Of a DNA stretch of 64,000 nucleotides, positions 44,017 to 61,729 are shown piece by piece. Position 1 is the stretch's first letter; each line of letters begins with the position of its first letter. The notes beneath the pieces are model-generated. The model searched no databases and was not told the DNA's origin. It was given only the letters and a program-made list of their open reading frames with translations. Made by a program: the position numbers and the translations under genes. The stretch spans positions 1 through 64,000 of the forward strand of contig NZ_JAJLRA010000011.1 of the NCBI RefSeq assembly GCF_020991365.1, in the 5' to 3' direction. This stretch comes from Streptacidiphilus sp. ASG 303. GTDB lineage: Bacteria; Actinomycetota; Actinomycetes; Streptomycetales; Streptomycetaceae.

Positions 44017-45120
44017 TCAGCCCGCCCGGCGCTCCTCCCCGGCGGAGCCGGTGCGCTGGGCCGGGGGCGGCGGGGCGGCCGGGAGCGGGATCTCGGCGGT
44101 GTCCGAGTCGGGGTCGTGCGCGGGGTCGTGCGGCACGCCGTCGACGGCGCCCACGCTCCGCACCGGCCGGACGGCGGCGGCGGCGACCGGCAGGGCCTCC
44201 GCGGCCGGCGCCGGGACGGAGAACGCGGCCGTGCCCGCGCCCGCCGCGGTGGGCATGTTGGTCAGCGCCGACAGGGTCTGCCGGATGTGGTCCAGGTGCA
44301 CCTGCACCAGTTCCTGGCGCTCCTCGTACGTCCGCTGCTCGCGCTCGGAGGCGGCGGTGATCCGCTCGGCCTCCTGGCGGGCCCGGTCCAGGATGCGCTC
44401 GGCGCGGACCCGGGCCTCCTCGTCGATCTCGGAGACGCGGGCCAGGACGGACTGGCGGTGGCGGGCGGACTCCTGGTCGCGGCGCTCGGCGACGGCGTTG
44501 ATCCGCTCCTCCAGCTCCTCCTCGCGGGCGAGCGAGGCGGCGGCCTCCTCGTCGGCGGCCTTCTGCCGGGCGGCGAGCTCGGACCGGGACCGCTCGGCCT
44601 CCTGCTCGGCGCGCCCGCGCACCGCGGCGGCGTCCCGCTCGGCGGCCGCGAGCAGTTCCCCGCTCTCCTGCGCGGCCTCCTCGCGGAGCTTCGCGGCGGC
44701 GGCGCGGGCCTGCTCCAGGAGCTGCTCGGCGTCGGCGTCCGCCCCGGCGCGGGCGGCGCCCGCCGCCTCGGCGGCGTGGCCGGACTGCCGCTGGGCCTCC
44801 TGGACGGCGAGGCGGTGCAGCTGGGCGGCGGCGCGCTCGGCCTCCTGCACCACGGTCTCCGCCTCGGCCTCGGCACCGGAGAGCAGGCCGGCGGCCCGCG
44901 CGCTCAGCTGCGAGAAGTCGGGCGGCGGGGCCTCCTCGGCGGCCTGCACCGCGGCGGCCAGCTCCGCCTCCATCTCGCGGATGCGGGCCCCCAGGATGCT
45001 GAGGCGCTCCCAGGCCTCGTCCCGCTGGGTGACCAGCGCCGTGACCGCACGCGCCACCTGTTCCGGCGCGTAGCCGCGCCGGGCCGTGGTGAAGTCGTAC
45101 GCAGAGACGGCGTCGCTCAT
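44017..45120 (-). CDS. DivIVA-like coiled-coil cytoskeletal protein
   Basis: A 367-residue protein. The N-terminus is SAYDFTTARRGYAPEQVARAV, a DivIVA-like membrane-tip motif, followed by long alanine- and glutamate-rich coiled coils (~30-290; EAERAAAQLHRLAVQEAQ type heptads) and a Pro/Ala-rich C-terminal tail. Proteins of this form are often called cellulose-binding in Streptomyces but act as filament or polarity proteins like FilP and Scy. ATG 45120 has GGGGAG eight bases upstream. Confidence 0.78.
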   Translation of the reverse strand: MSDAVSAYDFTTARRGYAPEQVARAVTALVTQRDEAWERLSILGARIREMEAELAAAVQAAEEAPPPDFSQLSARAAGLLSGAEAEAETVVQEAERAAAQLHRLAVQEAQRQSGHAAEAAGAARAGADADAEQLLEQARAAAAKLREEAAQESGELLAAAERDAAAVRGRAEQEAERSRSELAARQKAADEEAAASLAREEELEERINAVAERRDQESARHRQSVLARVSEIDEEARVRAERILDRARQEAERITAASEREQRTYEERQELVQVHLDHIRQTLSALTNMPTAAGAGTAAFSVPAPAAEALPVAAAAVRPVRSVGAVDGVPHDPAHDPDSDTAEIPLPAAPPPPAQRTGSAGEERRAG

Positions 45121-45316: not shown

Positions 45317-47839
45317 CTACAGCAGGCCGTCCCAGAACTGCTCCAGGACCACCGCCCACCACGTGTCCTGCGACTGCAGCGCCGCGGGGTCGACCGCGGC
45401 GAGCTGCGCCTGGAAGTCCGTGGTCCAGCGCCCGGCCTGCTCGGGCGTCAGGCCGTACCGCAGCCGCCACATCCGGCCGAGGAGCGCCATGCAGCGCACG
45501 AACTCCGGGACGCCGGAGTTCACGAACCGCGGCCGGTTCTGCTCGGGCCCGCCCTCCAGGTCAACCGCGACCACGGCGGCCGTGCCGTACTGCACGCACA
45601 GCTGGCGGCCGTAGTCGTTGCCCAGCACCAGGTACCCGCCCGCGTCCGGCGCCGCCGCACGCCCGCGCTCGGCCGCCAGCTCCGCCAGCGTCGGGATCGG
45701 CCGGCCCGGCTGCGCCTGCGCCCAGAAGAACGGGCCGAACTCCACCGGCAGGCCCGCCCAGGTCAGCGTCTGCGCCACCGCCTCCGGCACGCCCTGCCGG
45801 GCCACCGCGCGCTGCTCGTAGCGGAACACCGCCGGGCCGAAGGCCTGCGCCAGCTCCCCCGCCAGCTGCTGCGGGGCGAGCGGCGGCAGCTTCGGCACCG
45901 CGCCCGGGTCGGGCAGCGGCACCCGCACCGGCCGGGGCCGGGCCGGGCCCGACGCCAGGGCGTGCAGCTCGTCCAGGTGCTCCAGCAGGTGGCGCATGCC
46001 GGACTGCCGCGCGGCGTGGTCGCGGCCGTAGGCGGCGGTGTGGCTGATCCTGACGTTCGGCCAGGCCTCCTTGACCATGCGGGCGCAGTAGCCGGCCGGC
46101 AGGTCGCAGCACTCCAGCTCGGTGTGGAGCTCCAGGACCTGGTCCGGCGGCACGTTCAGCCGCCGCAGCTCCTGGAGGATCTTCCACTCCGGGTGCGGGG
46201 TGCCCGGCTCGCTGCGGTGCATCACCTTCTGCTCGGAGCCGTCGGGACCCCGGTAGCTGAGCACCGCCAGGTAGCCGGGGCCGACCGTGGGCACGCCGGG
46301 GGCGCCGGGCATGCCGGGCATGCCGGGGACGGGCGGCACGCCCGGACCGCCGGCCGGGCCGGGCGGCGGGGGCGGCGGCTGCTGCGGGAAGGGGCCGCCG
46401 AGCGGGCCGGGCGGCGGGGCGGCGGGGTAGCCGTAGGCCGCACCGGCGCCCGGCGGGGGCGGCAGTGGAGCACCCGGCATCCCCGGCGGCGGGGGCAGTG
46501 GAGCACCCGGCATCCCCGGCGGCGGGGGCAGCGGGGCGCCCGGCATCCCCGGCGGGGGCGGGGGCGGCGGACCGGGAGGCGTGCCCGGACCCGGCACGGC
46601 GAACGCACCCGGGGGCGGGGGCGGGGGCGGCGGCACGGCGGACCGTCCGGCGCCCCGGCCGGGGCCGCGGCCCAGGTCGACGGCCGGGGAGAGCTGGGTG
46701 GCCGCGTGGTCGAGGTCGGCCGCGGCGGGGGACGGGGACGCCGGGGCGCCGCCCGCTCCCGGCCCGCCGCCTCCCAGCAGGCCGGGCGGCGGCGGGGGCG
46801 GCGGGGCGCCGCCCGCGGCACGGCCGGCGCCGCCCGAGGGTGTGCCGGGGCCGCCGCCCAGCAGGCCGGGGGGCGGCGGCGGGGGTGTGCCGCCCGCGCC
46901 GCGGCCCGCGCCGGACGGGCCTCCGGACGGGCCGGGCACGACGGGCATGCCGGGGCCGCCCGGCGACGCGAGCATCGTCGGGGCGTGGTCGAGCTCGGGG
47001 GGCGACGGCACCGGGCCGCCGGGACGTGCGCCCGGGCCGGACGGCGCCGCGCCGCGCAGGCCCGGCGGCGGGGGCGGCGGAGGCCCGAGGGGGGCGGGCG
47101 GCGGGGCCACGGGCGGCGGCGGGTACACGCCCCGCGGCAGGCCGTCGGCGGGGTACGCCGGCGGCGGCGGGGAGGCCGGGCCACCCGGCGGCGGCGCGGG
47201 GTGGCCGTGGCCGACGGGAGGCACTGCGGGCCCGCCGGTGCCGAAGGGGTCGGACGGCGGCGGGGTCGGCCCGCCGCCGGTGCCGCCGGGCCGCGGCGGG
47301 GGCGTGTGCCCGGGCGGCGCGAGCATGGTCGGCACGTCCCCCGGCGGCCCGTCGGGCACCGGCGGCGCGGTCAGGACGGCGGGCGGCGGGTCGGCGGGCG
47401 CGGGAGCCGGCCGGGCGGGCCCGGCGGGGCCGCCGGAGGTGCCGAGCTCCGCCGCCTCGGCGGCGATCGCGGCCGCACCGGCCTCCTGCAGCCACTGCGG
47501 CGGGCTGAGCAGGAAAGAGGTGGCCTCCACCGAGTCGCGGGCGGGCGGCGCCGGGGTGCCCGCGGGCGCGGCCCCCGCGGGCCGCCCGTAGACCTCCTCG
47601 TAGCGGCGGACCACCTCGTGGACGGGCAGCGGCGGCCACATCGTGGCCGCCCCGCTGTCGCGGGCGATGACCAGCCGCACCTCGCCGCCGTCCGAGGTCG
47701 GCCCGTCGGCCCGGTCCGCGGCCCAGCAGACGAAGCCCAGGTCGAACTCCCGCACCCGCACCTCGCGGCGCTGGAAGTGCGGCACCCCGCCGTTGACCCA
47801 GTCCTCGGCGGTCTCCTGGGCCTGCGCGTACGTCACCAC
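45317..47839 (-). CDS. Imm35-like / deaminase / SUKH-4 fusion protein
   Basis: An 840-residue soluble protein. (a) ~1-95 resembles immunity domain Imm35/YrhB: YAQAQETAEDWVNGG, then EVRVREFDLGFVCWA. (b) ~96-515 is Pro/Gly-rich disorder with 11-residue repeats PPPPGMPGAPL. (c) ~520-630 looks like a toxin-type nucleic acid deaminase, with zinc and catalytic motifs HPEWKIL (~547) and ELECCDLPAGYC (~575-585), i.e. HxE plus Cys-x6-Cys. (d) ~640-840 matches SUKH-4 (GGYLVLGNDYGRQLCVQYGT and RYGLTPEQAG). There is no export signal. GTG 47839; the upstream gene's stop is eight bases before. It pairs with the WHH-SUKH gene as an operon. Confidence 0.75.
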   Translation of the reverse strand: MVTYAQAQETAEDWVNGGVPHFQRREVRVREFDLGFVCWAADRADGPTSDGGEVRLVIARDSGAATMWPPLPVHEVVRRYEEVYGRPAGAAPAGTPAPPARDSVEATSFLLSPPQWLQEAGAAAIAAEAAELGTSGGPAGPARPAPAPADPPPAVLTAPPVPDGPPGDVPTMLAPPGHTPPPRPGGTGGGPTPPPSDPFGTGGPAVPPVGHGHPAPPPGGPASPPPPAYPADGLPRGVYPPPPVAPPPAPLGPPPPPPPGLRGAAPSGPGARPGGPVPSPPELDHAPTMLASPGGPGMPVVPGPSGGPSGAGRGAGGTPPPPPPGLLGGGPGTPSGGAGRAAGGAPPPPPPPGLLGGGGPGAGGAPASPSPAAADLDHAATQLSPAVDLGRGPGRGAGRSAVPPPPPPPPGAFAVPGPGTPPGPPPPPPPGMPGAPLPPPPGMPGAPLPPPPGMPGAPLPPPPGAGAAYGYPAAPPPGPLGGPFPQQPPPPPPGPAGGPGVPPVPGMPGMPGAPGVPTVGPGYLAVLSYRGPDGSEQKVMHRSEPGTPHPEWKILQELRRLNVPPDQVLELHTELECCDLPAGYCARMVKEAWPNVRISHTAAYGRDHAARQSGMRHLLEHLDELHALASGPARPRPVRVPLPDPGAVPKLPPLAPQQLAGELAQAFGPAVFRYEQRAVARQGVPEAVAQTLTWAGLPVEFGPFFWAQAQPGRPIPTLAELAAERGRAAAPDAGGYLVLGNDYGRQLCVQYGTAAVVAVDLEGGPEQNRPRFVNSGVPEFVRCMALLGRMWRLRYGLTPEQAGRWTTDFQAQLAAVDPAALQSQDTWWAVVLEQFWDGLL
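46463..46561. repeat. 33-base tandem repeat within the Pro-rich linker
   Basis: Three units with a 33-base period (start points 46463, 46496, 46529) encode PPPPGMPGAPL copies. The unit length keeps frame. Confidence 0.75.
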
Positions 47840-47846
47840 GGCCGGA

Positions 47847-48875
47847 TCACCCCTGCCCCTTCACCGGGACGGCGCGGGCGAACCCGCCGTCCACCATCAG
47901 CTCGGCCACCGTCTCCAGCTCCGGCGGGCTGCCGGCCAGCCGCAGCAGGAACGCGTCGAAGTCGTCCCCGCAGGGCAGCAGCAGCCGCTCGCACCGCAGG
48001 TCCGGCGGCTCCTCAGCGCCGGTGTCGCGGGCGTCGTCGTACGGGCAGAACCAGACCGACCCGGTGCGCGGGCCGCGGACCTTCAGCGCCAGCAGGCCGC
48101 CCTGGACGTAGGCGACGGCCAGGTAGTCCTTGGTGAGGTGGTCGCGGACGCACTTGTTGACGTAGACCAGGTCGTCCAGCGCGTACGTGTCGCGGACGGT
48201 GAGGAACGGCTGGTCGAGCAGCAGGCCCAGCCCGGGGTCGAGGGCCACTCCGACGGGCGCGCGGCCGCCGGCGAGCTTGAGGAAGCCGCGGTAGGCGCCG
48301 GGCAGCCGGTAGCCGAGCCGCTCCTCCACCCGCTGGACCTGGTCCTCCGTCACCGCGAGGGGGTCGCCGCCGTCCTTCGTGAGGGAGAAGTGCGCGGGGC
48401 GGTGCTCCTGGAGGGGGCGGGTGCCGCGGCGGGAGTGGTCGGCGGTGGACAGGGCGAGGCCGCCGTGGTGCCGCAGCAGCGCCTTCACCTCCACCGGGAC
48501 CAGCTCCAGGCGGCGGCTGCCGGGGGCCGCCGGGCCGACGGCGTGGTGCCAGGTCCAGCCGTGGGGGGTGGCGACGGCGCAGTCGAGGTCGGCCCAGAGC
48601 TCGTGGCCCTGGGTGTAGAGGGCGGCGTTGGCCGACACGTGGTCGGTGAGCCGCAGCTCGTCGACGCCGAAGCCCTCCGGCGGGTCCGCGACCTCGGCGG
48701 CCGCGGCGGCGAACGCCCCGAGGTCGGGGTACCCGCGCTCGTCCACCGGCACCCCCGCGGGGTACCGCTCCGCGCGCAGCGGGTCGGGGAAGCGCACCGC
48801 CTGCCCCGCGTAGGCGGCGCCGGGCGCCTGCGCTCTCCCGGGTCCGGCGGGCGCGCCGGGCCGACCTGTCGTCAT
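47847..48875 (-). CDS. WHH nuclease-type domain fused to SUKH-1 (SMI1/KNR4)
   Basis: A 342-residue soluble protein. Residues ~35-150 follow the WHH family of HNH/Endo VII-type toxin nucleases: GYPDLGAFAAAAAEV at the start, the hallmark GWTWHH near residue 108, LVPVEVKALLRHHGG after it; the two His of WHH and the late HHGG are retained. Residues ~165-342 match SUKH-1: VTEDQVQRVEERLGYRLPG, YRGFLKLAGGR, and PGLGLLLDQPFLTVRD. In polymorphic toxin systems these parts are separate toxin and immunity genes. There is no signal or trafficking domain. ATG 48875; its stop is eight bases before the next gene. Confidence 0.8.
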   Translation of the reverse strand: MTTGRPGAPAGPGRAQAPGAAYAGQAVRFPDPLRAERYPAGVPVDERGYPDLGAFAAAAAEVADPPEGFGVDELRLTDHVSANAALYTQGHELWADLDCAVATPHGWTWHHAVGPAAPGSRRLELVPVEVKALLRHHGGLALSTADHSRRGTRPLQEHRPAHFSLTKDGGDPLAVTEDQVQRVEERLGYRLPGAYRGFLKLAGGRAPVGVALDPGLGLLLDQPFLTVRDTYALDDLVYVNKCVRDHLTKDYLAVAYVQGGLLALKVRGPRTGSVWFCPYDDARDTGAEEPPDLRCERLLLPCGDDFDAFLLRLAGSPPELETVAELMVDGGFARAVPVKGQG

Positions 48876-49052
48876 CGAGTTCGTCCCCCACTGGCTCGGC
48901 TCGTACGTCTGCGCCCCCAGCGTAGGGGGTGGCCGGGCGGCGGTGCTCCCCCGGTGGCGGGCCCCTCTGGCGCACCGCGCCGCCGCCGGGAAGGATGGGG
49001 GGCGGCCGCCCGGTCCCGGACACCGTGCGGCCGTCGGGGAGGTGACGCCGCC

Positions 49053-49694
49053 GTGGCGGGACCTGCGGAGCCGGACGCCGGGGGGCACACCATCCAGGGC
49101 CTGATGATCGCACTCGCGGAGGAGGGGCCGCCGGGCGGCTCCTGGAGCATCGACGGCGGGACGCTCACCATGACGGCCGCGCCGCGCAGCGACCTGTTCG
49201 CGGACCCGGCGGGACGGGAGGGCGAGCAGCTGCCGGACGCCGCACGGCTGGTGGGCGTGCCGCCGGAGGGCGACTTCACGTTCGCGGCGCGGGTGGAGGT
49301 GGGCTTCCGCTCCACCTACGACGCCGGGGTGCTGCTCCTGCACGCCGGCGAGCGGCTGTGGGCGAAGCTCTGCCTCGAGTACTCCCCGCAGGCGCGGCCG
49401 ACCGCCGTGACGGTGGTGACCCGCGGCACCTCCGACGACGCCAACGCGCACGAGGCGGCGGGCGGGCGGCTGTGGCTGCGGATCGCCCGCACCGGCGGCG
49501 CCTTCGCCTTCCACTCCTCCGCGGACGGCCGCTGGTGGCGGCTGCTGCGCTACTTCACGCTGGGGCCGGAGGCGGCGGGCCGGGTGCGGATCGGGTTCAT
49601 GGCGCAGTCGCCGCTCGGCGAGGGCTGCACCGCCGTCTTCGACCGGATCTCCCTCCTGCGCGAGGCCCCGAAGGACCTGCGCGACGGGAGCTGA
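49053..49694 (+). CDS. DUF1349 family protein
   Basis: A 213-residue soluble protein with a concanavalin-like jelly-roll pattern: WSIDGGTLTMTAAPRSDLF, FTFAARVEVGFRSTYDAGVLLL and WLRIARTGGAFAFHSSADG, then RVRIGFMAQSPLGEGC. This matches DUF1349, found alone in many bacteria with unknown ligand. GTG 49053 begins the frame with GGGGAGG about ten bases upstream; ATG 49105 is a shorter option. It sits divergently from the WHH-SUKH gene and convergent with the aminotransferase. Confidence 0.8.
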   Translation: MAGPAEPDAGGHTIQGLMIALAEEGPPGGSWSIDGGTLTMTAAPRSDLFADPAGREGEQLPDAARLVGVPPEGDFTFAARVEVGFRSTYDAGVLLLHAGERLWAKLCLEYSPQARPTAVTVVTRGTSDDANAHEAAGGRLWLRIARTGGAFAFHSSADGRWWRLLRYFTLGPEAAGRVRIGFMAQSPLGEGCTAVFDRISLLREAPKDLRDGS

Positions 49695-49720: not shown

Positions 49721-50965
49721 TCAGGCCCGGGCGAGGGCCCCGGCCAGCGTCTCGGCGACGCGGACCTGCTGGGCCTCGGTGATCTGCGGGAAGAGCGGCA
49801 GGGTGAGCAGTTCGCGGGCGGCCCGCTCGGCGACCGGGAAGGCCCCCTCCCCGTGGCCGAGCCACCGGAACGCGGGCTGGAGGTGGACGGGCACCGGGTA
49901 GTGCACGCCCGCGCCGATCCCCGCCGCGTGCAGCGCCTCCAGCACCGCGTCGCGGGAGCGGCCGGGCAGGACGCGGACCGCGTACAGGTGCCAGACGTGC
50001 ACGTTTCCGGGCGCGGTGCGCGGCAGGGCGACGCCGTCGAGGCCGGCGAGCAGGGCGTCGTACCGGGCGGCGGCGGCGCGGCGGGCGGCGTTCCAGGCGG
50101 GCAGGCGGCGGAGCTTGGCGCGCAGCACCACGGCCTGGAGGGTGTCCAGGCGGGAGTTGAAGCCGAAGCGGTCGTGGACGTACTTGCGGGACGAGCCGTG
50201 GTCGCCGGTCAGGCGCACCGCCTCGGCGAGGGCGTCGTGGGAGGTGGTGACGGCGCCCGCGTCGCCGTAGGCGCCGAGGTTCTTGCCGGGGTAGAAGCTG
50301 GTCGCCGCGATCCGGCCCCAGGAGCCGGCGGGCCGGCCGTCCTGGGTGGCGCCCTGCGCCTGGGCGGCGTCCTCGGCCACCGGCAGGCCGTAGGCGGCGG
50401 CCAGGTCGAGCAGCGGCCGCATCGGGGCGACCTGGCCGTTGAGGTGGACGGGCAGCAGGGCGGCGATCCGGCCGGGCCGGGGGTCGGTGCCCGCGGCGGC
50501 CGCGGCGGCCACCGCCCCGCCGTCGGCCTCCAGCACCTCGGCGACCCGGGCGGGGTCGGTGAGCAGGTGCTCGGGGTCGGCGTCGACGAGGACGGGCCGC
50601 AGCCCGGCGCGCACCACGGCCTCGGCGGTGGCGACGAAGGTGTTGGCGGGCAGCACCACGCCGCCCCCGGGGGGCAGCTCCAGCGCGCGCAGGGCCAGTT
50701 CGACGGCGTCGGTGCCGTTGGCGGTGCCCACGCAGTGGCGGGTGCCGCACAGGGCGGCGTACTCCTCCTCGAAGGCGGCGACGTCGGGGCCCTTGACGTA
50801 GGCGCCCGCGGCGAGGACCCGGTCGAAGCCCTCCCGGACCTCGTCGGCGACCTCGGCGTGGGCCGCCTGCAGGTCCACCAGCGGCACCGGCGGGGCGGCG
50901 GCCGGCGGGGCGGCCGGGCCCCCGGCGGGCGGGGTCGTGGCGTCGGCGGCCGTGCTCGCGGTCAT
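49721..50965 (-). CDS. DegT/DnrJ/EryC1/StrS aminotransferase (1)
   Basis: A 414-residue PLP sugar aminotransferase that adds an amino group to a keto-sugar nucleotide. The N-terminus is Pro/Ala-rich. Core motifs are GTRHCVGTANGTDAVELAL, VVLPANTFVATAEAV, VAEDAAQAQGAT and the PLP Lys in SFYPGKNLGAYGDAGA, then FGFNSRLDTLQAVVL. Its sequence style fits 3-amino transferases such as QdtB/DesV. ATG 50965 has AGGGGGACC upstream. It is the last gene of the operon beginning at 54567, with a 34-base gap to the second aminotransferase. Confidence 0.88.
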   Translation of the reverse strand: MTASTAADATTPPAGGPAAPPAAAPPVPLVDLQAAHAEVADEVREGFDRVLAAGAYVKGPDVAAFEEEYAALCGTRHCVGTANGTDAVELALRALELPPGGGVVLPANTFVATAEAVVRAGLRPVLVDADPEHLLTDPARVAEVLEADGGAVAAAAAAGTDPRPGRIAALLPVHLNGQVAPMRPLLDLAAAYGLPVAEDAAQAQGATQDGRPAGSWGRIAATSFYPGKNLGAYGDAGAVTTSHDALAEAVRLTGDHGSSRKYVHDRFGFNSRLDTLQAVVLRAKLRRLPAWNAARRAAAARYDALLAGLDGVALPRTAPGNVHVWHLYAVRVLPGRSRDAVLEALHAAGIGAGVHYPVPVHLQPAFRWLGHGEGAFPVAERAARELLTLPLFPQITEAQQVRVAETLAGALARA

Positions 50966-50999
50966 GGTGCGGTCCCCCTGGGTCCGGGTGTGGGCGTGC

Positions 51000-52142
51000 T
51001 CAGCAGGCCGCGGCCAGCAGGGCGGCGGCGACCTGGTCCTGCTGCTCCTCCGTCAGGAAGTGGTGCAGCGGCAGGACGAGGGAGTTGCGGGTGAGGTGCT
51101 CGGTGGCGGGCAGCGGCACCCGGGCGGTGCCCGCGTACGGGGCCTCCAGGTGGGCGGCCATGATGCCGCGCCGGGCGGAGATCCCGGCGGCGGCGAGCCG
51201 GCCCAGCAGGTCGTCGCGGCCGACGGGGAAGGCGTCGGGCAGCAGCAGCCAGCAGGACTGGAAGTTCGTGGTGCCGTGGGGCGGGTCGGCGACCAGCCGC
51301 CCGCCGTCCTCGCCGAGCAGCGGCGCCAGCAGCGCGCGGTAGCGCCCGGCGAGGGCGCGGCGGCGCTCCACCAGGGCCGGCAGCCTGCCCAGCTGGACCA
51401 GGCCGACCGCGGCCTGGATGTCGGTCATCCGGTGGTTGAAGCCGATCTCGTCGTACGTCTCCAGCAGGGCGGCGCCGCCGGGCGCCGCGTGCCGGTCGGC
51501 GGCGGAGACGCTCATGCCGTGCTCGCGCAGCCGCCGCAGCCGGGCGGCGACGGCCCCGTCGCGGCAGGTCACCATGCCGCCCTCGCCGGTGGTGAGGAGC
51601 TTGCGGGGGTGGAAGGAGAAGGCGGCCAGCTCGGCGCCGCGGCCCGCCGGGGCGCCCCGGTACACGCTGCCCGCGGCGCAGGCGGCGTCCTCGACCACGG
51701 TGGTCCCGCGCGGGTCGAGCAGGGCGCGCAGGGCGTCGAGGTCGACGGGGACGCCGCCCTGGTCGACGGCGACCACGGCCCGGGTGCGGGCGGTGAGCAG
51801 CGGCTCCACGGTCGCGGGGGTGAGGTTGCCGGTGGCGGGGTCGACGTCGGCGAAGACGGGCACGGCGCCGACGTAGGTGACGGCGTTGGCGGTGGCGACG
51901 AAGGAGAAGGAGGGGACGACGACCTCGTCCCCCGGGCCCACCCCAGCGCCGATCAGGGCGAGGTGGAGGGCCGTGGTGCAGGAGGAGACGGCGACGGCGT
52001 GCTCCACGCCGAGGTGGTCGGCGAAGGCCCGCTCGAAGGCCGCGGTGCGCGGCCCCTGGGCGATCCAGCCGGAGCGGACGGCCTCGGCGGCGGCCTCGGC
52101 CTCCTCCTCGCCGAGCCAGGGGACCATGACGGGGATGGTCAC
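51000..52142 (-). CDS. DegT/DnrJ/EryC1/StrS aminotransferase (2)
   Basis: A 380-residue enzyme of the same superfamily but a different clade. Core motifs are SGWIAQGPRTAAFE, HAVAVSSCTTALHLAL, VVVPSFSFVATANAV and VVEDAACAAGSVYRG, with the PLP Lys in FSFHPRKLLTTGEGGM; GFNHRMTDIQAAVG follows. This form is common in perosamine/GDP-4-keto type enzymes (RfbE-like), but the actual donor is unknown. The GTG start overlaps the epimerase stop by four bases. Two aminotransferases in one operon suggest a diamino-sugar or two substrates. Confidence 0.88.
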   Translation of the reverse strand: MTIPVMVPWLGEEEAEAAAEAVRSGWIAQGPRTAAFERAFADHLGVEHAVAVSSCTTALHLALIGAGVGPGDEVVVPSFSFVATANAVTYVGAVPVFADVDPATGNLTPATVEPLLTARTRAVVAVDQGGVPVDLDALRALLDPRGTTVVEDAACAAGSVYRGAPAGRGAELAAFSFHPRKLLTTGEGGMVTCRDGAVAARLRRLREHGMSVSAADRHAAPGGAALLETYDEIGFNHRMTDIQAAVGLVQLGRLPALVERRRALAGRYRALLAPLLGEDGGRLVADPPHGTTNFQSCWLLLPDAFPVGRDDLLGRLAAAGISARRGIMAAHLEAPYAGTARVPLPATEHLTRNSLVLPLHHFLTEEQQDQVAAALLAAAC

Positions 52143-53338
52143 GCGGCACCCCCGGGCGCGGCGGCGCCCTCGGACGTCCCCTCGGACGCCTCCTCGGCGG
52201 CGGTCCCCCGCCACCAGTCGACCAGGCGGCGCAGGCCCTCCTCCAGGCCCAGCTCCGGCTTCCAGCCCAGGTCGCGCTCGGCGGCGGAGATGTCGGCGAG
52301 GCGGCGGACCACGCCGCCCGCGGTGTCGCGGGCCGGCCCGTGCTCCACGCCGAGGCCGGGGCTGTCCATCGCGGCGAGCAGCGCCTCGGCCAGGCCCCGC
52401 AGCGAGACCTCGCTCGCGGAGGCGATGTTGTAGACGCGGTCGGTGGCGGGTGCCCGCGCGGCGAGCAGGTTGGCGCGGGCGATGTCCTCGGTGTAGACGA
52501 AGTCCATGGTCTGCGCGCCGTCGCCGAAGATCAGCGGCGGGCGACCCGCGGCGATCCGCTCCATCCAGCGGATGAAGACCTCGGTGTAGCGGCCGTGGAC
52601 GTCCATCCGGGGCCCGTAGACGTTGAAGTAGCGCAGGGCCACGTAGTCCAGGCCGTACATGGCGTGGAAGCTGCGCAGCAGGCCCTCGTTGAAGGCCTTG
52701 GCGGCGCCGTAGAGGGTGTCGTTGTTGTAGGGGTGCTGGGTCTCGGGCGTGGGGAAGGTGTCGGCCAGGCCGTACACCGACGCCGAGGAGGACGCGACGA
52801 CCTTGCGCACGCCGGTCTCGGCGGCGGCCTCCAGCACGTCGAAGGTGCCGTCGACCAGGACCTCCAGGGCGAGCCGGGGCTCGGTGGCGCACTGGGTGAT
52901 GCGGAGGGCGGCGAGGTGGAAGACGACGTCGGTGGCGGGCCGCAGCAGCTCCCGCAGCAGGGCGCGGTCGCGGATGTCGCCGTCGACGACGCGGAGCCGG
53001 GCGGGGTCGGCGGCGGCGAGGCCGCGGGCGCGGGCGAGGTTGGCGGCGCGGCCGCGGACGAAGTTGTCGAGGACGACGACCTCGCCGGCGCCGGCCTCCA
53101 GCAGCTGGTCGACGACGGCGGAGCCGATGGTGCCCGCCCCGCCGGTGACCAGGCACCGGGCGCCGTGCAGGTCGACGGCGGGACCGGTGCGGGCGGTCCC
53201 GGCGGCCCTGGCGGCGGCGGCCAGGGCGGTGCCGCACACGGGCCCGGGCGGGGCGGCGGGCGGGGTGCTGCCGGGCGGGACGGTTCCGGGCGGGGTGGGG
53301 CCGGACGGGGTGGGGCCGGACGGGGTGGTGGCGGTCAT
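52139..53338 (-). CDS. NAD-dependent nucleotide-sugar epimerase/dehydratase
   Basis: A 399-residue extended SDR. After ~60 residues of Pro/Thr-rich repeats (TPSGPTPSGPTPPG) comes the Rossmann motif CLVTGGAGTIGSAVV, VVLDNFVRGRAANL, and VVDGDIRDRALL. The catalytic residues are Ser in SSSASVYG and Tyr/Lys in YGAAKAFNEG, followed by ALRYFNVYGPRMDVHG and DFVYTEDIARANLL. The exact sugar is not clear. It is coupled to the genes on both sides by 4-base overlaps. Confidence 0.88.
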   Translation of the reverse strand: MTATTPSGPTPSGPTPPGTVPPGSTPPAAPPGPVCGTALAAAARAAGTARTGPAVDLHGARCLVTGGAGTIGSAVVDQLLEAGAGEVVVLDNFVRGRAANLARARGLAAADPARLRVVDGDIRDRALLRELLRPATDVVFHLAALRITQCATEPRLALEVLVDGTFDVLEAAAETGVRKVVASSSASVYGLADTFPTPETQHPYNNDTLYGAAKAFNEGLLRSFHAMYGLDYVALRYFNVYGPRMDVHGRYTEVFIRWMERIAAGRPPLIFGDGAQTMDFVYTEDIARANLLAARAPATDRVYNIASASEVSLRGLAEALLAAMDSPGLGVEHGPARDTAGGVVRRLADISAAERDLGWKPELGLEEGLRRLVDWWRGTAAEEASEGTSEGAAAPGGAA

Positions 53339-54567
53339 CGGGCGGCGGCCCCTTCGGTGAGCGTGTCGGTGAGGGCGTCGGCGGCGAGGGGGCCCGCGGC
53401 GAGGCCGGACGCGGCCGGGCCCGCCCCCGCGGCGCCGACCGGGACGGTGGCCCCGCCCAGCTCCAGGCTGCGGGAGGCGGCATGCAGCAGCCGCAGCACC
53501 CGCACCCCGGCACGGCCGTCGGTGAGGGGGGCGCGCCCCTCGGTGACCGCGGCGGCGAACTCCGCCATCACGTTGCGCAGGGCCTCCTGCTCCACCAGCG
53601 CGGGGGCGACCATCTCGCCCACCCGGTAGGAGATCAGCGCCTGGTGGCGGATGGCGTCGGTGAGCTCGTCGGGCGGTGTGAGGTCCACGCCGCGGTCGTA
53701 CACCGACAGGCGGGCCTGCGGGTTGAGGTCGTCCCAGACCAGGGTGCGCCGCGAGCCGCCGATCATGGTGGTGCGGACCTTGGTCGGCGACAGCCAGTTG
53801 ACGTGGCAGTGGGCGAGCGCCCCGCTGCTCAGGTGGACCGTCAGGTACGCCACGCAGGCGCGGCCCGCGCCGATCGGGTCGGCGCCCTGCGCGGAGACCC
53901 CCACCGGCTCGACGCCCGGCGGCAGCACGAAGTCGAGGATGGACAGGTCGTGCGGCGCGAGGTCCCACAGCACGTCGACGTCGGGCTGGACCAGCCCGAG
54001 GTTGATCCGCACCGAGTCGAAGAACTGCACCTCGCCCAGGTCGCCGCGGTGCACCATCTCGCGGATGCGGCGCACCACCGGCGTGTAGCAGAAGGTGTGG
54101 TCGCACATCAGCACCCGGCCGTGCCGCTCGGCGACCGCGACCAGCTCCTCCGCCTCGTCGGCGTCGGTGGTGATCGGCTTCTCCACCAGCACGTGCCTGC
54201 CCGCCTCCAGCGCCGCCCGCACCAGCCGGTAGTGGCTGGCGGCGGGGGTGGCGACGGCGACGGCCTGCACCCGGTCGTCGGCGAGGACCTCCTCGAAGGA
54301 CGTGGTGGTGCGCACCGTGCTGTACCCGCCGAGCACCCGCCGCGCGCGGGACTCGTCCAGGTCGCAGAGCCACCGCAGCCGCAGCCCGGGCGTCTGCTGG
54401 GCGTTGCGGACCAGGTTGGGCCCCCAGTAGCCGGCGCCGACGACGGCGATGCCGACCGGCCCGCCCTCCGGAACCGCGGGCGGCCCGGGGGCGGGCACGT
54501 GCTCGCCGGGTGCCTCGTGGGCCTCCTCGGGCCCGGTTGCGCCGCTCGTCCGCTGCGAATGCGTCAT
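53335..54567 (-). CDS. Gfo/Idh/MocA family oxidoreductase
   Basis: A 410-residue NAD(P)-dependent sugar oxidoreductase. The Rossmann motif is GIAVVGAGYWGPNLVRN (near residue 40), the dehydrogenase motif is HVLVEKPITTDADEA (Lys in EKP), and DHTFCYTPVVRRIREM follows. The GYWGPNLVRN form is typical of WbpB/MviM-like members that oxidise C3 of a sugar nucleotide before transamination. The N-terminus has ~35 low-complexity residues. ATG 54567 (frames to 54879 are not favoured). It is the first gene of the four-gene operon. Confidence 0.87.
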   Translation of the reverse strand: MTHSQRTSGATGPEEAHEAPGEHVPAPGPPAVPEGGPVGIAVVGAGYWGPNLVRNAQQTPGLRLRWLCDLDESRARRVLGGYSTVRTTTSFEEVLADDRVQAVAVATPAASHYRLVRAALEAGRHVLVEKPITTDADEAEELVAVAERHGRVLMCDHTFCYTPVVRRIREMVHRGDLGEVQFFDSVRINLGLVQPDVDVLWDLAPHDLSILDFVLPPGVEPVGVSAQGADPIGAGRACVAYLTVHLSSGALAHCHVNWLSPTKVRTTMIGGSRRTLVWDDLNPQARLSVYDRGVDLTPPDELTDAIRHQALISYRVGEMVAPALVEQEALRNVMAEFAAAVTEGRAPLTDGRAGVRVLRLLHAASRSLELGGATVPVGAAGAGPAASGLAAGPLAADALTDTLTEGAAAR

Positions 54568-55001: not shown

Positions 55002-55574
55002 ATGGCCATCGGCGACCGAATAGCGGCCACCGCCACGCCCCCGGCGGCCCCCGCCCCGTCAGGTCCGCAGCCGTCAGGACCAGGTCCCGGCCCCGGCCCC
55101 GACGCCGCACCCGCCGCTCCGCGGCCGCCCGCCGGCGCCCCGGTCCTGCGCCAGCACCGCGACAGCCTGCTGCCCGCCGTGGCCGCGGCCCTGTCCGCGC
55201 GCGACGGCACCCGCACCCACCCCGGCCACCGGGACGACGCCCCGCCCGCACTGCACCCGCTGGTCGCCGCGTTCCTCGCCGGCCTGCCGCCGGAGAGCCG
55301 CGAACGGTTCACCGGCCGCTGCGCCGAGGCGATCCTGCTGTCCCAGTACCTGGCGACCGCCGAGGCCAACCGCTCGCGGCGCGCCTCCCGCAAGCCGCTG
55401 GGCCTCTCCGACGCCCGCAAGGCCCTCAAGGGGGCCCGCATGACGACGGTGCGGATCCGCGAGGAGGGCGACCCGGCCCACGGCACCCACCAGCCGCCGT
55501 GCCGCTCCTGCGCGCCGATGCTGGAGCACTTCGGCGTCCGCAGCGTCGCGGTGGCGCCGGCAGCCGCCGGCTGA
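55002..55574 (+). CDS. YwqJ-like toxin deaminase
   Basis: A 190-residue soluble protein. After ~45 Pro/Ala-rich residues, the fold matches YwqJ-type nucleic acid deaminases: zinc motif RCAEAILLSQYL (CAE, near residue 106) and the second motif HQPPCRSCAPMLEHFG (PCxxC, ~165). ALKGARMTTVRIREEGD precedes it. All three catalytic/zinc-binding elements are present. ATG 55002 has GGGAGGAG upstream. No export signal is seen. The immunity-like SUKH-3 gene follows at 55620. Confidence 0.8.
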   Translation: MAIGDRIAATATPPAAPAPSGPQPSGPGPGPGPDAAPAAPRPPAGAPVLRQHRDSLLPAVAAALSARDGTRTHPGHRDDAPPALHPLVAAFLAGLPPESRERFTGRCAEAILLSQYLATAEANRSRRASRKPLGLSDARKALKGARMTTVRIREEGDPAHGTHQPPCRSCAPMLEHFGVRSVAVAPAAAG

Positions 55575-55619
55575 GCCGCGGCCGCACCCGCCCCGGCCCC
55601 CGACCCGAGGAGCCCCCTC

Positions 55620-56108
55620 CTGAACGCCCGATTCCCCGCCGACGTCGCCTCCGCGCTCAAACACGCCGGGTGGCACCCCGGCCGCTGGCAGATCCGCCAG
55701 GCCGAGGCCTGGGCGGACGCCCTGACGGCGTACGACTCCCCCGACGGCCACCGCCACAGCGTCTTCCCCGCCGCCGTGGAGGCCTGGGCGGAGTTCGGCG
55801 GCATCGGCGTCGACCTGGCCGGCGCCGGCGAGCAGATCGCCCGCACCCCCTTCCTGATCGACCCGCTGCGCGGCCTCCACCAGCCCCGCACCCTCGCCGA
55901 CCTCGGCCGGGCCCTGGACACCCCCCTCGCCCCCCTCGGCGAGGAGAACGGCGGCCTCGGCCTCCTCGCCGTCGACGCCGCCGGGCGCGTCTACAGCCTC
56001 GACCACACCGGCGAGTGGTACCTGGGGGACACCGTCGACCGGGCGGTGACGACCCTGGTCACCGGCGCCCTCCCCGAACGGCTGCGGACCGCCGTCCAGC
56101 CGCTCTGA
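55620..56108 (+). CDS. SUKH-3 family immunity-type protein (CTG start)
   Basis: A 162-residue soluble protein matching SUKH-3: FPADVASALKHAGWHPGR, HRHSVFPAAVEAWAEFGG, then EQIARTPFLIDPLRGL and ENGGLGLLAVDAAGRVYSLD. No ATG, GTG or TTG lies in frame before the conserved N-terminus. The codon at 55620 is CTG, with GAGGAG seven bases upstream, so CTG is the likely start; the in-frame GTG 55776 would delete a third of the domain. It lies 45 bases after the deaminase stop, as a cognate immunity gene would. Confidence 0.8.
   Translation: MNARFPADVASALKHAGWHPGRWQIRQAEAWADALTAYDSPDGHRHSVFPAAVEAWAEFGGIGVDLAGAGEQIARTPFLIDPLRGLHQPRTLADLGRALDTPLAPLGEENGGLGLLAVDAAGRVYSLDHTGEWYLGDTVDRAVTTLVTGALPERLRTAVQPL

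Positions 56109-58906: not shown

Positions 58907-61729
<2,823 letters not shown>

Follow-up and report, generated by a model that had tools for sequence, protein, structure and literature searches.

Polymorphic toxin systems carry an N-terminal trafficking domain and a separate adjoining immunity gene, and they are patchily distributed and diversify rapidly at their toxin and immunity ends. Three described arrangements come closest to the locus considered here: toxins of the type VII secretion system (T7SS) that combine WXG100 with an XOO_2897 deaminase (PF14440) and go with SUKH-4 (PF14435); WHH toxins (PF14414) with SUKH immunity, found as Rhs C-termini (structures 8bd1 and 8h8a); and the YwqJ/SUKH-3 pair. 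We analysed a stretch of 64,000 nucleotides from Streptacidiphilus sp. ASG 303 (contig NZ_JAJLRA010000011.1, positions 1 to 64,000; hereafter the window), in which two adjacent genes on the reverse strand, A (47847–48875) and B (45317–47839), encode fusions of such domains. Both genes are inherited vertically under purifying selection similar to that acting on mfd. The reading that we tentatively prefer is that they belong to a domesticated core island, in which B would be an intracellular nucleic-acid deaminase restrained in cis and A a WHH-derived partner.

B has the same two families as the WXG100/T7SS toxins, but here they are fused, without WXG100, in a vertically inherited part of the chromosomal core, and the spacing of the cysteines differs (Cys-x6-Cys in B). 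A has the DxxGxPDFxPY and WHH...L.P...GG signatures in common with the Rhs WHH toxins and differs from them in its fusion to SUKH-1, in an invariant Lys131 in place of the helix His, and in the lack of a carrier domain. The YwqJ and SUKH-3 genes of the window match both Pfam families above the cut-off and are separate and adjacent; unlike the known pair, they lack a carrier domain, belong to the core, and are divergent from A and B. Thus, only YwqJ/SUKH-3 keeps the separate immunity gene of polymorphic toxin systems, whereas A and B are fused. The part of Zhang et al. 2012 (PMC3482391) drawn on here describes SUKH domains fused to other immunity domains (polyimmunity) and occasionally to toxins, of which Tox-GHH is named; fusions with deaminase or WHH domains that have become fixed in the core genome are not mentioned there. 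Every domain family involved is known, as are SUKH–toxin fusions in general; the fixation of the island in the core and its proposed origin appear to be new in the searchable literature.

Distribution, synteny and selection

Of the 299 genomes sampled from the window's family, 294 gave a match to B and 292 a match to A, both of them single-copy core genes; matches were missing or very weak in genera g2 and g5 and in a few assemblies that are fragmented or incomplete. The carriers named in the scan of GTDB genomes are Streptomyces, Kitasatospora, Streptacidiphilus, Wenjunlia, Actinacidiphila, Streptantibioticus, and Peterkaempfera, the last with 94% identity to the window. The initial annotation of this DNA had proposed looking for the same gene pair across Streptomyces, and the pair proves to be near-universal and core in Streptomycetaceae. 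Outside this family, a class-wide sample gave only distant B paralogues, in one other family.

Gene order was counted in the 55 named loci that exceed 15 kb. In all 55, A and the N-terminal domain of B share the strand of the B core, and A and B are neighbours in an unchanging order. The YwqJ-type deaminase gene (55002–55574, forward strand, 190 residues, Pfam E 6e-31) is on the strand opposite to A and B in all 55, and the adjoining SUKH-3 immunity-type gene (55578–56108, start approximate, forward strand, Pfam E 2e-49) is present in 53; both loci without it are shorter and cut by contig ends.

Pairwise distances correlated closely with those of mfd (r = 0.95 for A, 0.90 for the B core, 0.92 for YwqJ, and 0.91 for SUKH-3; Mantel p 0.001). 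The median ratio of nonsynonymous to synonymous substitution rates (dN/dS), obtained by a simple counting method without a model of compositional bias, was 0.195 for A, 0.185 for the B core, 0.23 for YwqJ, 0.29 for SUKH-3, and 0.18 for mfd. Core status, a dN/dS of about 0.19, and r ≥ 0.9 with mfd set A and B apart from the patchy, rapidly diversifying polymorphic systems. The mean pairwise identity is 0.80 for the B deaminase and likewise 0.80 for B SUKH-4, so that the latter, in contrast to fast-evolving immunity proteins, matches the deaminase in conservation and is not diversifying.

Domain architecture of the A and B proteins

Gene B has a GTG start and encodes 840 residues, comprising an N-terminal domain, a Pro/Gly/Ala linker, an XOO_2897-type deaminase, and SUKH-4 (Pfam, AlphaFold2 (AF2), and Foldseek). 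Gene A encodes 342 residues, with a WHH-type HNH domain (approximately residues 36–142) fused to SUKH-1 (Pfam). Four Pfam matches were judged against the curated cut-offs, and all exceed them: in B, XOO_2897-deam at residues 521–621 (45977–46279, reverse strand; E 5e-35, 120 bits against 27) and SUKH-4 at residues 660–834 (45338–45862, reverse strand; E 5e-51, 173.7 against 25.5 bits); in A, WHH at residues 102–142 (E 4e-12, 46.1 against 25.1 bits) and SMI1_KNR4/SUKH-1 (PF09346) at residues 175–310 (E 1e-12, 48.9 against 25.4 bits). The initial annotation had assigned a deaminase-like domain and SUKH-4 to B, and WHH and SUKH-1 to A, and these matches bear it out, with exact coordinates; they also show, in both proteins, the joining of toxin-class and immunity-class domains in one chain that it had pointed out. 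Its remark that neither protein has an export signal agrees with the Pfam and NCBIfam scans, in which no WXG100 or other trafficking domain was matched in A or B; the NCBIfam scan of the two proteins gave zero matches of any kind. The gap between the A stop and the GTG of B is 7 nucleotides rather than the eight given earlier, and the two genes, with A just upstream, are probably co-transcribed. The region upstream of A (48876–48950, reverse strand) contains a conserved −10-like TAnGCT element in the consensus of 58 aligned upstream regions, CCCTACGCTGG in the window.

The N-terminal domain of B (residues 1–90, 47570–47839, reverse strand) is kept in all orthologues (tblastn), with an identity of 0.74 among them. 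It had been called Imm35-like, a relationship that our searches do not establish: Imm35 (PF15567) gave no Pfam match at E ≤ 10 in this domain, and profile–profile comparison with hhalign gave a probability of 34%, against less than 0.3% for unrelated controls. The domain is possibly related to Imm35/YrhB. By eye, a C-terminal stretch of the SUKH-3 protein of locus L276 resembles it.

The linker (residues 91–509, 46313–47569, reverse strand; 36% Pro, 21% Gly), in which Pro, Gly, and Ala abound, varies in length between about 290 and 600 residues in the loci that were compared. The motif (A/P)T(M/Q/V/S)(L/F) occurs 4.8 times per linker, compared with 0.09 in shuffled linkers, and is found in 58/58 linkers; a stricter related motif occurs two or more times in 0/479 other neighbouring proteins. 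Such threonine motifs are possible docking or phosphorylation sites, and that they serve partner docking is a guess. Threonine motifs in the window's linker include EATSFLL, APTMLAPP, and ATQLA.

Deaminase site and fold

The residues H40, E42, C69, and C76 of the B core, which make up the HPE and Cys-x6-Cys motifs already noted in the initial annotation, are invariant in 81/81 sequences. The AF2 model of B residues 510–840 has a mean predicted local distance difference test score (pLDDT) of 75 and a predicted template modelling score (pTM) of 0.70. Over the deaminase part, Foldseek matched it to APOBEC3H (prob 1.00, E 1.6e-3), to APOBEC3A, and to DddA (prob 0.97); there was also a weak match to the SMI1/KNR4 structure 3d5p. 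For B, then, the structure prediction that had been suggested as a check shows the deaminase fold. Given the intact site, we propose that the B deaminase is catalytically competent.

In the deaminase–SUKH-4 paralogues of L115, L118, and L121, His and both Cys are lost, which makes them natural pseudo-deaminases; that of L121 adjoins an EccC-like gene. Since proteins of this architecture can lose catalysis, the strict conservation of the site in core B is meaningful. The window's own genome carries a compact B paralogue of 433 residues without the long linker (C111; L083:10776–15888), in which the catalytic residues are kept. It adjoins two P-loop ATPase-like genes, together with which it looks like a separate conserved system. 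The first P-loop ATPase-like protein also accompanies B paralogues in L119–L122.

Atypical WHH site of A

The WHH domain of A matches the solved Rhs toxin C-termini 8bd1/8h8a. The family motif consists of WHH, L, H, and HxG, as given in the portion of Zhang et al. 2012 (PMC3482391) referred to above. All 53 sequences of A compared have W109, H110, H111, H136, H137, and G139, and the mean pairwise identity of the WHH segment is 0.87. The helix position, in contrast, is an invariant Lys131, where the solved Rhs toxins (8bd1) and a canonical toxin from genus g5 have His (alignment without gaps). Homologues of A from a sister family of the same order (36–39% identity, full length) have WAH, WTH, or WVH, with either His or Asn in the helix, so that H110 is changed instead of, or together with, the helix His. 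Every branch seen in the A lineage has therefore lost at least one metal-ligand-type His; the HHGG and the second His of the WHH motif persist.

Judging by these losses, A may work as a subunit for binding or regulation, or as a nuclease whose metal site has been modified; its nuclease activity is doubtful, because the helix His of the WHH site is replaced by Lys131. The WHH-type nuclease region that the initial annotation proposed for A does have the WHH motif, but it lacks the helix His of the family. For A, Lys131 led us to reject a scheme in which the two enzymes are both self-inhibited nucleases.

Split forms and proposed origin of the cassette

Two Streptomyces plasmids, NZ_CP054921 and NZ_CP108606, carry the split, ancestral-type form, namely a WXG100–XOO_2897 toxin followed by a separate SUKH-4 gene, in keeping with the earlier remark that such domains are normally divided between toxin and immunity genes. 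Near this split form, there is a SUKH-4–deaminase fusion with reversed domain order. The search of the plasmid collection gave only distant deaminase matches. In genus g5, locus L276 (2063–11809) contains an EspC/WXG100-like gene and a 2238-residue WXG100/Gln_amidase/WHH toxin that ends in WHH, followed by SUKH-1, a WHH–SUKH1 fusion (40% to A), YwqJ, and SUKH-3 genes. This T7SS-type locus likely represents the ancestral arrangement. On the basis of the split plasmid form and of the g5 locus with WHH–SUKH1, YwqJ, and SUKH-3, the island looks like a domesticated T7SS-type toxin/immunity cassette.

The five sister-family genomes examined have one A homologue each, beside mfd, and in three of them a gene resembling PEP (phosphoenolpyruvate) carboxylase by eye lies on its other side. 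Full B was not found in the sister family, which suggests that A was in place before B joined it, or that B was lost there.

Interpretation and alternatives

We favour, at somewhat less than even confidence, the view that the whole family has domesticated a three-pair cassette into an intracellular nucleic-acid-modifying module with a developmental or genome-maintenance role. The source would be a T7SS-type polymorphic toxin/immunity locus, from which three toxin-class nucleic-acid domains would each have been kept with a SUKH domain, WHH/SUKH-1 and XOO_2897/SUKH-4 as fusions and YwqJ/SUKH-3 as adjacent genes. B would be cytosolic, with its own SUKH-4 restraining or gating the deaminase in cis, and its linker, with ATML-type motifs, and N-terminal domain would tether it to gating partners. 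A would act as a WHH-derived partner whose metal site has been altered, probably either a modified nuclease or a subunit that binds or regulates. Such a system would act on the nucleic acids of the producing cell itself in a conserved role, for example as a developmental or damage-triggered switch. Several observations weigh against this account. Lys131 in A does not suit a simple scheme of two self-inhibited nucleases; the AF2 model of A is poor (pLDDT 44); the PDB fold matches of the B core, while of high probability, have only modest E-values (best 1.6e-3); and the residue losses in some B paralogues show that non-catalytic use of the B architecture exists.

The main rival, which we consider rather unlikely, is that B deaminates nucleic acids or nucleotides constitutively, as a housekeeping enzyme of editing or repair in which SUKH-4 serves targeting or assembly without inhibiting. 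The core distribution, the mfd-like constraint, the site intact in 81/81 sequences, and the A homologue beside mfd in the sister family as well would all suit it. However, deaminases of this class are also found as WXG100 toxins, with SUKH-4 encoded in the adjoining immunity position, and every toxin-class domain of the island travels with a SUKH module, for which reason restraint is favoured over mere targeting.

The remaining explanations are less fitting because of the conservation pattern of A and B. The initial annotation had considered decoys that neutralize foreign toxins, that is, fused polyimmunity proteins whose toxin-like parts mimic the target. The altered WHH site of A is compatible with this, as are SUKH-containing polyimmunity proteins, which the cited part of PMC3482391 describes, and the B paralogues without HxE and both Cys, one of them beside the EccC-like gene; but the catalytic residues of core B (81/81) and of YwqJ (C-x-E and CxxC, invariant in 57/57) are retained, and SUKH-4 is not diversifying. 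We regard this explanation as improbable overall; it was dropped for core B because the catalytic site is invariant, and it fits some B paralogues. The same annotation had envisaged self-inhibited effectors, a reading that may hold for B, and their release on a trigger such as phage infection, which finds no support. Nuclease and deaminase effectors are indeed common in defence, and the compact paralogue in the window's genome adjoins ATPase-like genes, but A and B gave no match to PADLOC models at E ≤ 1, gave no relative in the phage and viral collections, and are single-copy, syntenic, and near-universal, neither patchy nor mobile, which makes abortive-infection effectors a very improbable reading. 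We give even less credence to export of the proteins as antibacterial effectors, each with an immunity domain of its own: although the relatives are T7SS-type toxins, the proteins are conserved rather than polymorphic, no trafficking domain was matched in them, and no secretion gene was recognised among the conserved neighbours.

Most toxin/immunity pairs are patchily distributed and evolve fast; a core set of them, fixed in nearly all sampled Streptomycetaceae under constraint like that of mfd and with its deaminase sites intact, would, if our preferred reading of a domesticated cassette is true, be a clear case of a weapon turned resident function. The set also provides compact deaminases that come with an inhibitor-type domain attached. 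Since the genes are expected in nearly all Streptomyces, these proposals are testable in any laboratory strain of the genus.

Neighbouring genes

A coiled-coil gene downstream of B (44017–45120, reverse strand) lies on the same strand in 54/55 loci; from its position in the gene order, we take it to be the probable orthologue of SCO3114. The SCO3114 product is a coiled-coil protein studied as FilP-like, with a diffuse signal (PMC2680258). For the flanking SCO3115–SCO3118, no mention was found in the literature searched.

In the window, A and YwqJ are separated by a sugar-biosynthesis operon (49721–54567) with DegT-type aminotransferases, an epimerase, and an oxidoreductase. L067 and L075 have these genes at the same site, which suggests either repeated acquisition of the operon there or frequent loss. 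A short gene, DUF1349-like by eye, lies at about 49107–49694 on the forward strand, divergent from A, and L063 has a similar gene. The window gene at 58907–61729 resembles, by eye, the PEP carboxylase-like gene of the sister family.

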